A stretch of 64,000 nt of DNA from Anaerobacillus isosaccharinicus (lineage in GTDB: Bacteria > Bacillota > Bacilli > Bacillales > Anaerobacillaceae): contig NZ_CP063356.1 of assembly GCF_001866075.3 (NCBI RefSeq), positions 3,276,164-3,340,163 of the forward strand. The letters run 5' to 3'. Both the position numbers and the translations under genes were made by a program. Under the pieces are notes generated by a model that saw only the letters and a list, made by a program, of their open reading frames with translations, made no database searches and was not told where the DNA came from. Of the stretch, positions 13,492-19,114 are shown one piece after another (position 1 is the first letter of the stretch; each line of letters begins with the position of its first letter).

Positions 13492-13731
13492 ATGAGACAA
13501 GAAATGCAAGTTTATCTTAATCAGCACCCAGAAGTAAAACAATTTATTCGGCATAATCCAGTGTGGTATCGATATTTATCGAGAAATCCCCAATCCTTAT
13601 CACAATTAGAAAATGAAGTAAAAGTCTTTCATGGTAAGACATTACCACAAAAATTAGATCGCTTCCAATCAAATTTAAGTATGGCGATGATGCTTCTAGA
13701 TATGGTCAAAGGATTAGGAGCATCTAAATAG
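13492..13731 (+). CDS. ylbE: YlbE-like protein
   Basis: A 79-residue protein matching the YlbE family: MRQEMQVYLNQHPEVKQFIR, then NPVWYRYLSRNP and a C-terminal helix MAMMLLDMVKGLG. Its function is unknown. It starts at ATG 13492 with AAAAGGGG upstream, 38 bases after ylbD, and is probably co-transcribed with it. A strong terminator follows. Confidence 0.85.
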   Translation: MRQEMQVYLNQHPEVKQFIRHNPVWYRYLSRNPQSLSQLENEVKVFHGKTLPQKLDRFQSNLSMAMMLLDMVKGLGASK

Positions 13732-13767
13732 GCAGGTGAATGATAAATTCATCTGCTAATTTTTTTT
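13732..13767 (+). terminator. Terminator after ylbE
   Basis: A 10-bp stem (GCAGGTGAAT / ATTCATCTGC, one G-U pair) with a 5-base loop is followed by TAA and eight T. It closes the ylbDE unit ahead of the accessory block. Confidence 0.88.
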
Positions 13768-13849: not shown

Positions 13850-14281
13850 ATGTTTATGATTAAGTTATTTTTTTCCATTTTAGTTATGGCAATGAGTTTT
13901 TCAAGTGGAGGCAATGGTGATGGAGAATCAACCTATGCTGCGACAAAGTCTATTCCATTTAATGACGATTATAGTCGTGTTGTTACCAGTGTAGAAGAAG
14001 ATGAACGCATGATCGTTAAATATGATGTGAAGGAAAAAGATATTTATGTGGAGTGCTTTGTCAAAGATTTTTCATTTAGTAAAGAGCATGCTGGCCTATT
14101 AAAGCAGGAAGGTGAAGGTCATGTTCAACTTTTTATAAATGGCAATAAAGTTGATTCCATCTTTACATCATCGTTTATCATAAAAGCACTTCCAGTAGGT
14201 ACATACACAATTAAAATTGAGCTTGTGCATAATGATTATACTCCGTATGGCCTATCAAAAGAATTTGAAGTTAAATTATAA
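13850..14281 (+). CDS. Small secreted protein of unknown function
   Basis: I do not recognise the family. The 143 residues begin with a signal peptide (hydrophobic core about 4-16, likely cut after an AA pair near 30). A mature domain of about 110 residues follows, with alternating beta-strand pattern ending in HVQLFINGNKVDSI and LPVGTYTIKIELVHNDYTPYG, suggesting an immunoglobulin-like or cupredoxin-like sandwich. It has no cysteine in the signal peptide, so it is not a lipoprotein. ATG 13850 or ATG 13856 could start it; AAAGGATGGG is upstream. It ends 22 bases before the XPB helicase gene and may be co-transcribed with it. Confidence 0.65.
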   Translation: MFMIKLFFSILVMAMSFSSGGNGDGESTYAATKSIPFNDDYSRVVTSVEEDERMIVKYDVKEKDIYVECFVKDFSFSKEHAGLLKQEGEGHVQLFINGNKVDSIFTSSFIIKALPVGTYTIKIELVHNDYTPYGLSKEFEVKL

Positions 14282-14303
14282 AAAAAGAAAAGAGGGTCTT
14301 CTA

Positions 14304-15953
14304 ATGCTTTTTAACTTTGAAAATCCATTAGTGGTTCAAAAAGATGGCACAATTATTGTTGAAGCAAATCATAAGCAATTCCCAATTATTCAGCCAATGC
14401 TATCACAAATGGCCATCTTAGAGAAGGCAACTCTCTCAACTCATACATACAAACTTTCACCTTATTCGATTTGGTCGGCACAATCGCAAGGAATTCAAGT
14501 AACTGAAATTATCAATTTCTTAGATGAATATTGTAAGTATCCACTAGCACAAAGTGTCGTGCAATATGTTGAAGAACATTATCAGCGTGCAAATTCAATT
14601 ATTATGGAAAAAATCAACGGTGAATGCCTTCTCATTTTTAAGGATGAAGGAGCAAAACAGACGTTATTAAAGGATAAAAAGATCAACAAACTCTTAGAAA
14701 AAGGCAAAGATCAGTGGTGTTTTCAAGAAGTAAGCCGTGGGGAGTTAAAGAGACTTTGTTTAACATATGGTTACTTCATCAATGATCGTATTGGCTATGA
14801 AAAAGGTCAACAATTAAAAATCCAGATGTTAGCTAATGTAAACTTAAGACCTTATCAAAAAGAAGCTATAAAAGAGTTTCATAAAAACGGGAAAACAATG
14901 GGGGGGAATGGCATTGTCGTTATGCCATGTGGTTCAGGGAAAACGATTGTCGGCTTAGGTATTATGGAGAAAGTCAAAGAGGAAGTATTAATCATTACCT
15001 CAAGTGAGACTTCGATGAAACAATGGCAAAGGGAAATTGCAGAAAAAACAACTGTGCCACTCGAGAACGTTGGTTTATACAGTAGTTCCCTAAAAGAGGT
15101 TAAGCCAATAACAATTGCATCTTACCAAATGATGATTTATAGAGATCATAATACGAAACAGTTTATCCATCTGCCATTATTCAACGAACGTAACTGGGGC
15201 CTCATTATTTACGATGAGGTTCACCTCCTTCCTGCGCCGATATTTAAAACAACGGCGGGTATTCAAGGAAAAAAGAGATTAGGATTAACGGCAACCCTTG
15301 TTAGGGAAGATGGAAAACAAGAAGAGGTTTATAGCCTAATAGGACCTAAGCAGTATGAGGTTTCTTGGAAAGGTCTAGAAAACAATGGTTGGATTGCTAA
15401 AACATTTTGCAAAGAAATTCGTATCAATTTTTCGGAAAGAGAGCTAAAGCAATATGTTGAAAGTAATCAGCAACAGCAATTTAAAATTGCTTCAGTAAAT
15501 CCTACAAAAATAGAAGTGATTAAAAAGTTACTACAGAAACATGAACAACAACCGACGCTTATTATTGGTCAATATATTGATCAACTAGCTGAAGTAGCCG
15601 AAAAACTACAATTGCCAATGATTACTGGGAAGACACCTCAAAAAGAACGTGAACTGCTCTATGAAAAATTTCGTCAAGGAGAAATAGGTGTTCTTGTTGT
15701 TAGTAAAGTAGCAAATTTCGCGGTAGATTTACCTGATGCAGAAGTTGCCATTCAAATTTCAGGTGCGTTTGGTTCTAGACAAGAGGAAGCTCAGAGAGTT
15801 GGTCGAGTATTGCGACCAAAACAAGATAAAAATGAAGCGTTTTTCTATTCGATTGTAACAAGGAATACAAAAGAGGAGCATTGTTCAAGTCACAGACAGC
15901 TTTTTATGTTAGAGCAAGGCTACTCATATGAGGTGGAAGAGTGGTTATCATAA
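14304..15953 (+). CDS. XPB/Rad25-type DNA repair helicase
   Basis: A 549-residue superfamily 2 helicase of the bacterial XPB group, 3'-to-5' DNA translocases related to the TFIIH helicase. The N-terminal 170 residues match the bacterial XPB damage-recognition-like region (PLVVQKDGTIIVE; HTYKLSPYSIW). Then come the Q/I region LRPYQKEAI (181), Walker A GSGKT (210-214), DEVH (304-307), the XPB-specific RED motif (334-336) in LTATLVRED, and motif VI QRVGRVLR (497-504). All key residues are present. ATG 14304 is supported by AGAGGG upstream. The next gene starts inside its last codons. It has no counterpart at this place in B. subtilis. Confidence 0.93.
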   Translation: MLFNFENPLVVQKDGTIIVEANHKQFPIIQPMLSQMAILEKATLSTHTYKLSPYSIWSAQSQGIQVTEIINFLDEYCKYPLAQSVVQYVEEHYQRANSIIMEKINGECLLIFKDEGAKQTLLKDKKINKLLEKGKDQWCFQEVSRGELKRLCLTYGYFINDRIGYEKGQQLKIQMLANVNLRPYQKEAIKEFHKNGKTMGGNGIVVMPCGSGKTIVGLGIMEKVKEEVLIITSSETSMKQWQREIAEKTTVPLENVGLYSSSLKEVKPITIASYQMMIYRDHNTKQFIHLPLFNERNWGLIIYDEVHLLPAPIFKTTAGIQGKKRLGLTATLVREDGKQEEVYSLIGPKQYEVSWKGLENNGWIAKTFCKEIRINFSERELKQYVESNQQQQFKIASVNPTKIEVIKKLLQKHEQQPTLIIGQYIDQLAEVAEKLQLPMITGKTPQKERELLYEKFRQGEIGVLVVSKVANFAVDLPDAEVAIQISGAFGSRQEEAQRVGRVLRPKQDKNEAFFYSIVTRNTKEEHCSSHRQLFMLEQGYSYEVEEWLS

Positions 15954-17623
15954 AATTAGATCAATGTTTACAGGAACTAAAAGGGGAAGTCAAACAGAAA
16001 ATAATTCAAAGGCAAAACGAATTCCTTAAAGATGATAAACGAACAGATCTATATGAGCGGCTGAGTGAAAGTGATTATCGAAAAAACTTACTAACAAGCT
16101 TAAGCGTGATTGAGAAAAAATATTATAATTCCTTTTTAAGGAAATATAGTTATTATTCAAATGAAAATCTAAAAGAAGAGCAGACCGATTCCATTGAAGA
16201 GAAGCTTGCTCTTCTTTTGCTACGCCAAAAGGGAATTGTTTATAAATTGGATGAAAAAATACATCTACAACGATTTATTATTCCAATAGAGTTTGTGGAA
16301 AGTTATTTTGACCTCACCTTTAAATATGAAAAGATAGATCATTATCAAAGGGAAATGTCACTAAAATATTATCTTTATTATCTACTTGAAATCATTTTTC
16401 TTGTTAAAGAGAAAAAAATTAAAAGTATGTTAGATTTAAAGCTTTTAGGCGATCGGTATTCTAATTTTATTGATTGGGAACTGTTAATTAAGTTTTTAGT
16501 CAAAGAAGGTCTACTTGATCATACAAAAAAAGAACTTTCTGTTATCGAAAAAAATTGCCAACTATTTTTTCGGAAATCGAGCCATGAAATCAAAAAGGTA
16601 CTGACAACATTTATTTTAAGTGAGATTTGCGAAAATAATTTTACGGCTAATTTTATATTCTGGATATTATTCACCTTTGAAGGAGGAATTACTCGAAATG
16701 AACTTAACCATTATTTAAAAACAAATCATCAATATTCCGAACATACTTTAATTAAAGCTATTGAGCAATTAAAACTTTTGAATATTATTTCGATTAATGA
16801 AGAAATAATCAGTGCCACGGTGGAAACAGAAGCTTTAGAGCATGTTCAAGGGATGGAGGCCGGTATACTAGAATTTTTATTACCGGTTTCAATCAACAAT
16901 GAAGCTCTTTGGACATTTAGATGTTGGGGCATGATATTAAAATGGGATGTAATGATTCACATTTTATTGACACAAGATACGGTTAGTAGGGCTTTAATGG
17001 AGCAACGGGATGAAAAAGAAATCAACAAGTGTTTACGATGGTTTTTTTCTGATTCTGTTAGTAGCAGTTGGCAAAGAACTTTAAACCAATGGTTATTAAT
17101 CGGAAAACCAATTGCTAAGAAAGGTCAGCTTGTCTTTTACTCAATATCAGAGGGCCTCCACCTGAAGTACATTGAGGAACATTGGTCAGAATGGTTAGAG
17201 AAAACCGAAAATGGTGTAGTAATAGAGGCATATTTAACGAATGATTTTGAAAGGTTACTCGGTAAACTTTCTTTAAATGTAATTACAGAAAAGAATGAAG
17301 TTGAAAAAAAAGTGCAGTCATTTCACCTTGTTATTAAGAATGAATACCCAGAGGCAAGTGCTGTGTTACCTGAAGTAGAAAAGCTACCTAAACAATGGTT
17401 TATTTTAACGGCTTATGAAGAAAGAACAATCCAGCGAATAGTCAAGCAAGCCATTGTTCTCCAACTGCGTATTGAGATTGAAACTAATGATAAAGAGATA
17501 CTTAAGATAATTCCGTTAAAAGTAACAAATAATAATGGAAGTTATGACATCTTTACTAACGATAAAAAGTCAATTAGCTTGGCGGCAATATCGAAAATAG
17601 CTGTTATTCATCCTCTGCAATAA
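15941..17623 (+). CDS. XPB-associated protein with winged-helix and WYL-like domains
   Basis: A 560-residue protein overlapping the helicase gene by 13 bases, so translation is coupled (GTG 15941 with AGGTGG upstream). The first 200 residues are helical. A segment at about 215-295, containing EGGITRNELNHYL and LIKAIEQLKLLNIIS, reads as a winged-helix domain. The last 90 residues (AYEERTIQRIVKQAIVLQLRIEI ... IIPLKV ... AISKIAVIHP) have the layout of a WYL-like beta domain. Bacterial XPB genes, as in mycobacteria, often sit beside a helicase-associated (Helicase_C_3 type) protein. I infer this is that partner, possibly a DNA-binding adaptor or regulator. The function is not proven. Confidence 0.7.
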   Translation: MVIIKLDQCLQELKGEVKQKIIQRQNEFLKDDKRTDLYERLSESDYRKNLLTSLSVIEKKYYNSFLRKYSYYSNENLKEEQTDSIEEKLALLLLRQKGIVYKLDEKIHLQRFIIPIEFVESYFDLTFKYEKIDHYQREMSLKYYLYYLLEIIFLVKEKKIKSMLDLKLLGDRYSNFIDWELLIKFLVKEGLLDHTKKELSVIEKNCQLFFRKSSHEIKKVLTTFILSEICENNFTANFIFWILFTFEGGITRNELNHYLKTNHQYSEHTLIKAIEQLKLLNIISINEEIISATVETEALEHVQGMEAGILEFLLPVSINNEALWTFRCWGMILKWDVMIHILLTQDTVSRALMEQRDEKEINKCLRWFFSDSVSSSWQRTLNQWLLIGKPIAKKGQLVFYSISEGLHLKYIEEHWSEWLEKTENGVVIEAYLTNDFERLLGKLSLNVITEKNEVEKKVQSFHLVIKNEYPEASAVLPEVEKLPKQWFILTAYEERTIQRIVKQAIVLQLRIEIETNDKEILKIIPLKVTNNNGSYDIFTNDKKSISLAAISKIAVIHPLQ

Positions 17624-17644
17624 TAAATAAGAAAGAGGTTAATT

Positions 17645-18616
17645 ATGATTGTTCGATTTGGCTACGTTGCAATGAGTGTTCATCTAAAAAACGCATCACC
17701 ATCACAGACGATGACAGTCAAACAATTTGAGCAAATTAAAGATAAAGAAGCTGCGATTCGGAAGTTAGAAAGGATTGCTGTTTCAAATCTAGAGAACTGT
17801 TATCGTTTGTTAAAACATAATTTAGCTCATGATATTACTTTTTTTCGACTATCATCAAAGCTTGTTCCGCTAGTCAATCACCCACATACAGAAGGTTGGA
17901 AATACGAAGAAGCTATTGCACCAATATTAAATGAAATTGGGGAATTTATTACAAAGCATCAAATGCGTATAGGGTTTCATCCCGATCACTTTGTTGTGAT
18001 AAATAACTTAGATGAAGATCTTTTAAAACGATCAATACATACATTGATTTATCATTATAAGCTATTAAAGGGAATGAATATTGATCCTATGCATCGTTGT
18101 GTTCTACATGTTGGCGGAGCAAAAAATGGTGTTGTAGAAGGGTTAGAAGAATTTATAGAAAACTTCGAGAAAATTCCCAAAGCTATTCAACAAATGCTTA
18201 TTCTAGAAAATGATGATACCGTTTATCATATTGAGGATGTTTTATATTTAGGTGAGAAGTTACAAATTCCTGTCGTCCTTGATATTCATCATCACGATAT
18301 ACATCAACCGAAAACTTTCTCTTTTCTAGAAGTGTGGGATCGTGTTCTGGAAACGTGGAAACATAGTTCACTCCCGGTAAAAATTCATGTGTCTTCACCA
18401 AAAGAAGATGCCACAGATAAACGCCATCATGATTATATTGATGTAGAACGGCTTATGAGATTTTTAACTAGTATTAAAGGAACTGTGGAACAGTTAGATG
18501 TTATGATTGAAGCAAAAATGAAAGACGAAGCTCTTATAAAATTGATGAAGCAATTACAGACTCGTCACGATTGTTCTGTCATATCAGGGGCTAGTATTAA
18601 ATTAGAAGGCAACTGA
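17645..18616 (+). CDS. uvsE: UV damage endonuclease UvsE (UVDE)
   Basis: TIM-barrel endonuclease that nicks DNA 5' of UV photoproducts and abasic sites, starting an excision repair path independent of UvrABC. The 323-residue length matches B. subtilis YwjD/UvsE. Metal-site residues are recognisable: H112 in GFHPDHF, H155 in LHVGGAKNG, E188 in ILEND, D213 and the histidines of DIHHHDIH, and KIHVSSPK near 255. GAAAGAGG lies 6 bases before ATG 17645, 21 bases after the helicase partner gene. The order suggests a repair operon with the XPB helicase. Confidence 0.93.
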   Translation: MIVRFGYVAMSVHLKNASPSQTMTVKQFEQIKDKEAAIRKLERIAVSNLENCYRLLKHNLAHDITFFRLSSKLVPLVNHPHTEGWKYEEAIAPILNEIGEFITKHQMRIGFHPDHFVVINNLDEDLLKRSIHTLIYHYKLLKGMNIDPMHRCVLHVGGAKNGVVEGLEEFIENFEKIPKAIQQMLILENDDTVYHIEDVLYLGEKLQIPVVLDIHHHDIHQPKTFSFLEVWDRVLETWKHSSLPVKIHVSSPKEDATDKRHHDYIDVERLMRFLTSIKGTVEQLDVMIEAKMKDEALIKLMKQLQTRHDCSVISGASIKLEGN

Positions 18617-18642: not shown

Positions 18643-18651
18643 TGATATAAT
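18643..18651 (+). promoter_or_regulatory. Probable extended -10 promoter of ylbF
   Basis: TGATATAAT at 18643-18651 is a consensus extended -10. The -35 at 17-base spacing is poor (TCGCTT). It lies 22 bases before the ylbF start codon and gives ylbF a promoter separate from the repair block. Confidence 0.55.
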
Positions 18652-18673: not shown

Positions 18674-19114
18674 ATGTTAAAAACTGTTACGCACACAGAC
18701 ATTATTTCGCAGTCACTTTCTTTAGCAGAAATGATTCTACAATCAGAGCAGTATAAACAATACGAAGCTGCTAAAAGCGCTCTCCGAAGAAATGTGGATG
18801 CCCAAGAAATGATTTGGGAGTTTAACAAACGAAAAGATGACTTTGAAGAGGTTCAAAGGTTTGGTAAATATCACCCAGATTATAGCCGTGTTTCAAAGGA
18901 AATGCGAGAATTTAAACGGAAATTAGATTTGTACGAGCCAATAGCCCTTTTTAAAAAATCAGAAAAAGAACTAGAAGAGTTATTGAACGAAGTTAGTATG
19001 ATTGTTGCTCATGCAGTTTCAAAATCAATAAAAGTACCTACTGGTAATCCATATTTTGATTCAATGTCCTGCAGTGGAGGCTGTTCGACAGGTGGCGGCT
19101 GTGGTTGTAAATAG
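18674..19114 (+). CDS. ylbF: YlbF, subunit of the Ric/Y-complex
   Basis: A 146-residue helical protein that in B. subtilis forms a complex with YmcA (RicA) and YaaT (RicT), promoting RNase Y-dependent mRNA maturation, sporulation, competence and biofilm formation. The long helical hairpin region (SLAEMILQSEQYKQYEAAK ... LDLYEPIALFKKSEKELEELL) is followed by a cysteine-rich tail, CSGGCSTGGGCGCK, consistent with the iron-sulfur cluster binding known for this complex. ATG 18674 follows GGAGGG by 6 bases. Confidence 0.92.
   Translation: MLKTVTHTDIISQSLSLAEMILQSEQYKQYEAAKSALRRNVDAQEMIWEFNKRKDDFEEVQRFGKYHPDYSRVSKEMREFKRKLDLYEPIALFKKSEKELEELLNEVSMIVAHAVSKSIKVPTGNPYFDSMSCSGGCSTGGGCGCK

Follow-up and report, generated by a model that had tools for sequence, protein, structure and literature searches.

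We analysed a 64,000-nucleotide stretch of Anaerobacillus isosaccharinicus DNA (contig NZ_CP063356.1, forward-strand positions 3,276,164 to 3,340,163; hereafter the window), in which a four-gene block ahead of ylbF encodes a small protein (OrfA), an XPB-type helicase, a partner protein and the ultraviolet (UV) damage endonuclease UvsE. Our data suggest that XPB and the protein encoded next to it probably make up a DNA translocase of two subunits, a bacterial equivalent of the XPB-p52 (Ssl2-Tfb2) pair of eukaryotic TFIIH. An earlier note on this DNA had proposed a UV-repair module of XPB, partner and UvsE; we find that the stable unit is XPB plus its partner, often upstream of ylbF, and that linkage of XPB to UvsE recurs, yet is a minority state. 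The more surprising content of the locus is that, across Bacillota, the XPB partner family is p52-like.

The window XPB matches the NCBIfam model NF045503 at 721.1 bits (cut-off 610) over profile positions 1-547 of 548. By eye, the GSGKT, DEVH, RED and QRVGR motifs are all present, mostly on invariant or near-invariant columns of an alignment of 41 sequences that includes the window, and the helicase identity and intact motifs reported in the earlier note stand. XPB scores over the cut-off in all seven genus genomes, with the window protein 75-82% identical to those of the six other members. In broader samples, it exceeds the cut-off in 12 of 397 genomes at order level, 30 of 398 at phylum level and 126 of 299 at class level. 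We surveyed 100 XPB loci (L) in 99 genomes (G) from 42 GTDB families (f) using six-frame hidden Markov model (HMM) searches. Nine loci came from the window, six other genus members, G031 and G015, 31 from the phylum sample, five from the order and 55 from the class; these 55 were picked by hand to span families, with 73 of the 133 class genomes in which XPB reached 1e-80 not included, and five of the 100 loci belong to a degenerate XPB lineage. The counts depend on the marker HMMs, which were trained by iteration on the same set of loci. Immediately downstream of XPB, 81 of the 100 loci (35 of the 42 families) carry a gene of the partner family, confirming that the two are a conserved pair. 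Two of the other 19 loci lie at a contig edge (L073, L162) and two belong to f143, one of them (L054) with a homologue of the partner upstream of XPB.

The partner family is tied to both XPB and p52 through profile comparisons. Starting from four other partners, a family profile recovered the window partner in its second round, and a profile built without the window's own family and f26 matched it at 1.2e-30. The window partner is 41-53% identical to those of the six other genus members, from which, next to the values for XPB, we conclude that the partner evolves fast. PF13625, which is also the N-terminal domain (NTD) of XPB, is found in 33 of 42 partners, and Pfam Tfb2 in nine at E values up to 1 (seven at 0.01 or better, best 1e-8). 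The sole partner over the Tfb2 cut-off is that of L139 (35.0 bits against 34.5, Tfb2 positions 230-356), followed by those of L153 (24.7 bits, 225-356), L061 (21.8, 204-356), L169 (20.8, 230-306, mostly the portion ahead of the clutch), L160 (19.1), L140 (18.5), L172 (17.2), L063 (13.5) and L053 (11.0). Compared with the XPB profile, the partner profile aligned over 157 columns (probability 98.7, E 3e-16), with the partner clutch on the XPB NTD. When the partner profile was searched against PDB sequences, the first nine matches were all XPB or p52 (9e-5 to 1e-3; XPB at 9e-5, p52, or TFIIH subunit 4, at 7e-4), and the tenth was a yeast-type Tfb2 (0.0055). These comparisons indicate that clutch homology to the XPB NTD holds at the level of the family, which the window partner joins only via the family profile. 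Because the window partner has no Tfb2 match and only L139 exceeds the cut-off, we call the protein p52-like and do not file it as p52. The label given to it in the earlier note, winged-helix/WYL, misses the p52/XPB-NTD clutch as the main feature of the family; Pfam WYL was detected weakly in one of the 42 partners, and not in that of the window.

Published work, cited here and below from excerpts, describes a fold common to the XPB NTD and the p52 clutch (residues 306-399), a pseudo-symmetric dimer of the two that recruits XPB, and a winged helix ahead of the p52 clutch (PMC6422496), and reports that p52 stimulates the XPB ATPase (PMC6422496, PMC9557730). Building on the observed gene order, adjacency, overlap and conservation, the family-level clutch homology and the intact active-site residues, we infer a heterodimer, presumably co-transcribed, in which the partner would contribute a helical or winged-helix portion at its N-terminus along with a clutch homologous to XPB's own NTD. 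The two clutch-type domains would form a pseudo-symmetric dimer as in TFIIH, recruiting and activating XPB. XPB and partner would be an old Bacillota unit, upstream of ylbF in part of the Bacilli; a few lineages, this genus among them, have a class-1 UvsE separating the pair from ylbF. In these, the likeliest division of labour would have UvsE cutting on the 5' side of a photoproduct and the XPB pair opening or displacing the lesion-bearing stretch; moving 3' to 5' along the intact strand, such a motor would strip off the damaged strand on the downstream side of the nick. Mycobacterium tuberculosis XPB alone unwinds DNA only in large excess (PMC3353954), as would be expected if an activator were missing.

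UvsE lies downstream of XPB in 11 of the 100 loci, from four families (seven in f1, two in f26, one each in f188 and f200), in every case between partner and ylbF; it was found at no other place in the 100 loci. In a tree of 63 of the loci, chosen by hand, the XPBs of f1 and f26 group together in a single clade (100/98), the UvsE label requires four changes, and linkage falls in three separate XPB lineages (f1 with f26, f188, and f200). One f26 locus (L124) has XPB, partner and ylbF without UvsE, and nine of the 12 genomes of the window's order with an over-cut-off XPB carry UvsE in the block, one of the nine copies being broken. In f188, a 578-residue ORF (open reading frame; L134:4102-5838), glycoside hydrolase family 3-like by eye, lies between partner and UvsE. 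In the class sample (n = 299; XPB in 133 and UvsE in 115 genomes at the thresholds used), 76 genomes have both genes, 57 XPB only, 39 UvsE only and 127 neither, an odds ratio of 4.3 (p 3e-9) with relatedness ignored. Among the 76, the two genes share a contig in 33 and lie on different contigs in 43. Two results count against coupling of the pair to UvsE: XPB and UvsE lie within 10 kb in just three of these 76 genomes, and the UvsE at L039:4642-5602, in draft genome G005 of the genus, is broken by two frameshifts, which may reflect a draft assembly error. The linkage claimed in the earlier note thus recurs across three XPB lineages, but we reject a general XPB-UvsE module, as 89 of the 100 XPB loci lack UvsE and 73 of the 76 co-occurring genomes do not have the two within 10 kb on one contig.

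In the order, UvsE is present in 112 of 150 genomes. Thirteen of the 30 best UvsE loci adjoin ylbF (four in the genus, G031, and eight genomes of f3, f6, f42 and f45), and 17 have no ylbF within 1.5 kb. The eight genomes have no XPB at the search threshold, and the linkage is therefore partly one of shared location. In a UvsE tree of 27 rows, with broken copies left out, all UvsE of the order that adjoin ylbF group in a single clade (100/99, 16 rows), and those of L134 and L147 fall apart from it. A fair case can thus be made that XPB-partner and UvsE each became neighbours of ylbF with no mutual functional tie: the single clade takes in lineages without XPB, and UvsE is missing from 25 of the 36 XPB loci that have YlbF within 6 kb downstream. 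Against this stand the tight spacing in the window (a 13-base overlap and a 21-base gap), the gene order that the genus shares with two f26 genomes whose XPBs are ~44% identical to its own, and the finding of the same XPB, partner, UvsE order in f188 and f200. We also observed an opposite-strand ORF of ~250-350 codons between orfA and UvsE at L106 and L109-L113 (f42, f45, f6, f3), in the place of the window's XPB and partner; it is missing from L107 and L108 (f6).

We view more tentatively the proposal of the earlier note that XPB, partner and UvsE are dedicated to excising UV photoproducts by a pathway independent of UvrABC. The three genes occur in that order in four GTDB families, XPB and UvsE co-occur above expectation in the class sample (again with relatedness ignored), and the UvsE metal ligands are kept. 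The proposal has to contend with the XPB loci and co-occurring genomes that led us to reject a general module, with UvsE beside ylbF in genomes without XPB, and with UvsE loci elsewhere: of eight fetched more widely (seven of the 17 without ylbF, plus G129), seven have a helicase ORF upstream of UvsE. We ruled out XPB as this upstream helicase, which is DEAD-box and CshA-like by eye; class-1 UvsE lies downstream of a DEAD-box helicase gene in seven genomes (L114-L120), with one ORF between the two at L119. The window genome also carries a second, class-2 UvsE and UvrB. A full UvrB scores over its cut-off in four of the seven genus genomes, including that of the window, so a UvrABC-independent role is not forced; UvrB is missing from three less complete or less clean genus genomes (90%, 80% and 62% complete; UvrA and UvrC not searched), and may have been lost in some species of the genus. 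Halobacterium has XPB but no uvsE in the table of the excerpted source, and its dark repair is there fully uvrABC-dependent. A UV module is possible in the window's lineage, not as a general rule.

The UvsE identification is confirmed by TIGR00629 (217.5 bits, cut-off 124.45). We take the metal ligands of Thermus UVDE to be H101, H143, E175, D200, H203, K229, H231 and E269, using a chain offset of 21 chosen where 10 of 11 reference residues fit (the eleventh, H236, did not). Their equivalents in the window UvsE are all kept: H112, H155, E188, D213, H216, K246, H248 and E289. The lesion-probing pair, presumably Q104-Y105 in Thermus UVDE, is replaced by H115-F116, and HPDHF or HPDHY occurs in all 26 full-length class-1 UvsE examined, the window's included. 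A class-2 UvsE in the comparison set has HPNQF and the class-2 copy of the window genome HPGQY; both class-2 proteins looked at retain Q where the 26 class-1 proteins have H. The window genome is a single 5.2-Mb contig with two UvsE genes, and its class-2 copy (C1:4766365-4767147; L043:6285-7154) is 35% identical and stands alone between aminotransferase-like and transporter-like genes. Many genomes of the order have one UvsE of each class, judged by identity, and tandem UvsE pairs occur at L121:6126-8081 (one of each class) and in genomes G126, G941, G1015 and G1023.

Several results weigh against a p52-type partner for XPB. Neither Pfam nor NCBIfam gives any match to the window partner, and all nine Tfb2 matches come from loci without ylbF or UvsE, none of them ylbF-linked. 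Taken by themselves, the seven genus partners gave no match to the XPB profile (probability 0.6%), and the L139 partner alone found p52 in PDB at 0.37, ranked behind an unrelated ribosomal protein. An unrelated ribosomal protein was also eleventh in the partner-profile PDB search (0.011), followed by three more Tfb2 chains. An AlphaFold2 model of the partner from two sequences was poor (predicted local distance difference test score 37.7), leaving no usable structure for the window partner. Fifteen XPB loci stand without a downstream partner (f192, f202, f185, f206, f63). Finally, in the experiments excerpted (PMC3353954), unwinding by M. tuberculosis XPB depended on a 3' tail and failed on blunt, bubble and 5'-flap substrates, so that a simple UvsE nick would give it no starting point unless the partner alters these requirements.

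The partner clutch could instead be a duplicate of bacterial XPB's own NTD with no special kinship to p52, which would fit the slightly better match of the partner profile to the XPB NTD than to p52 (9e-5 against 7e-4) and the presence of PF13625 in 33 of 42 partners with Tfb2 in only nine. We consider this unlikely: several of the Tfb2 matches extend 60-80 residues upstream of the clutch, into the place of the p52 winged helix, and Tfb2 is absent among the 25 Pfam families listed of the 30 that match the 41 XPBs. It is improbable that XPB and partner act with YlbF, which works with RNase Y in B. subtilis, in transcription or RNA turnover and not in repair. In favour of this reading, YlbF lies downstream in 36 loci of 13 families and ylbF-linked partners are longer (median 622, n = 36, against 528, n = 43, with starts partly over-extended); against it, YlbF is missing from the 6 kb downstream in 64 of the 100 loci, and a promoter seen by eye may serve ylbF separately. 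We retain the XPB-p52-like pair as our preferred reading.

Table 1. Features of the XPB-partner-UvsE block and its borders (window coordinates).
Feature	Position	Strand	Basis or remark
Terminator-like stem-loop after ylbE, upstream block border	13731..13757	+	11-pair stem, then AATTTTTTTT T-run
orfA, small protein, hydrophobic N-terminus by eye	13850..14281	+	No Pfam family over cut-off
XPB-type superfamily 2 helicase, 549 residues, PF13625 at residues 9-131, intact motifs	14304..15953	+	
XPB partner, 560 residues, bacterial p52-like family	15941..17623	+	Family profile
Partner clutch-like region, residues ~312-450, approximate	16874..17290	+	Profile alignment; family-level match to XPB NTD and p52
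Partner C-terminal region, residues ~470-558, WYL-like by eye	17348..17614	+	Profile alignment
UvsE, class 1, 323 residues, metal ligands kept, Q-Y probe pair replaced by H-F	17645..18616	+	
Extended -10 TGATATAAT, possible ylbF promoter	~18643..18651	+	By eye; absent from site scan
ylbF (YlbF/YmcA family), recurrent downstream neighbour of XPB-partner	18674..19114	+	

The ORFs bear out the four-gene block, its coordinates and its flanks as given in the earlier note, with YlbD and YlbE on one side and the YlbF-family protein beyond UvsE. The spacings between orfA, XPB, partner and UvsE are 22, -13 and 21 bases, the overlap being the one described earlier, and 57 bases separate UvsE from the ylbF ATG (18674). 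We took the XPB start to be the ATG at 14304 and a listed TTG at 14217 to be an over-extension; the partner starts at a GTG with AGGTGG ahead. The order orfA-XPB-partner-UvsE-ylbF is kept in all seven genus genomes examined, and for this reason we take it to be beyond chance; at L038, a 6-kb contig of the genus begins too late for ylbE to show. The position of orfA is the same in the seven genus genomes and in L147 (f200), and among named genomes, a search with one sequence as query recovered the block at a single locus, in Anaerobacillus alkalilacustris. The borders of the block are less clear. A stem-loop with a T-run supports the terminator placed upstream of it, but terminator-like sites in the region do not exceed those in shuffled sequence (3 versus 2.9; promoter-like sites 21 versus 22.1). 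The separate ylbF promoter likewise has an extended -10 by eye but does not appear in the site scan, which found no terminator between UvsE and ylbF. That the block is an accessory unit apart from ylbF is doubtful, because XPB-partner-ylbF itself recurs in 36 of 100 loci.

We rejected two other readings of XPB. For a defence system, PADLOC gave helicase-core matches to XPB (best PbeA, 7.7e-34) and one weak match to the window partner (0.0046), with no defence gene set. For a viral origin, the 80 viral loci listed of 102 confirmed all have 20-32% identity and begin at or after query residue 134, so none of the 80 covers the full XPB. No plasmid copies of the partner were found at 1e-5. We also observed a divergent XPB lineage (L042, L074, L075, L126, L171) that shares 27-30% identity with the window XPB and in which DEVH is changed to DDAH, DNAH or DDVH, and EEAQR.GR to EEYLR.GK. 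Its members are still paired with a short partner-family gene of 370-400 residues, a membrane-protein-like ORF of ~190 residues lies just upstream at L042 and L126, and genome G947 has both an ordinary and a divergent XPB-partner pair.

A 2012 study reported that p52 homologues were not found in bacteria (PMC3353954), and a 2026 review calls the role of bacterial XPB elusive (PMC13024598), as far as the excerpts of both extend. Among the open-licence PubMed Central matches listed, no title or abstract beginning names a bacterial p52, with subscription literature and preprints outside this scope. If the neighbour of XPB is a p52-type activator, the bacterial XPB of the 2012 study was assayed without its partner, and the enzymology and origin of the TFIIH XPB-p52 module could be tested with two proteins; the UvsE-linked lineages would be the natural place to ask about the pair in UV repair. 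On balance we lean towards a broader picture in which bacteria have a minimal TFIIH-like motor, the XPB-p52 pair predates eukaryotes, and the motor acts as a stand-alone DNA opener that is coupled to UvsE in some Bacilli and also exists in a pseudo-helicase version with changed Walker B and motif VI.

Among known systems, the excerpted mycobacterial XPB (PMC3353954) is likewise a bacterial XPB with an N-terminal domain and 3' to 5' helicase activity, but was studied without a partner. The archaeal XPB-Bax1 helicase-nuclease (PMC7672443, PMC7293015), as excerpted, shares with our pair an XPB with a dedicated partner; the bacterial partner differs in belonging to a p52-like family and in having no nuclease family in Pfam, none being found in the window partner and no XPB-type nuclease recognised among the 25 Pfam families listed for the 42 partners (Bax1 was not compared directly). 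The block resembles UvsE/UVDE alternative excision repair in the intact metal ligands of the window UvsE, and differs from it in the class-1 variant with H-F for Q-Y and in having an XPB neighbour only in some lineages. TFIIH XPB-p52 differs from the bacterial pair in that no p8-binding C-terminal module appears among the Pfam matches listed for the 42 partners (25 of 37 families), no other TFIIH subunit was seen in the bacterial neighbourhood, and the bacterial subunits are encoded by adjacent genes, in places with UvsE. In both, XPB has an N-terminal clutch-type domain and its partner family a homologous clutch, with a p52-like stretch ahead of it in some members, a hint that bacteria possess an equivalent of part of a human machine for repair and transcription.

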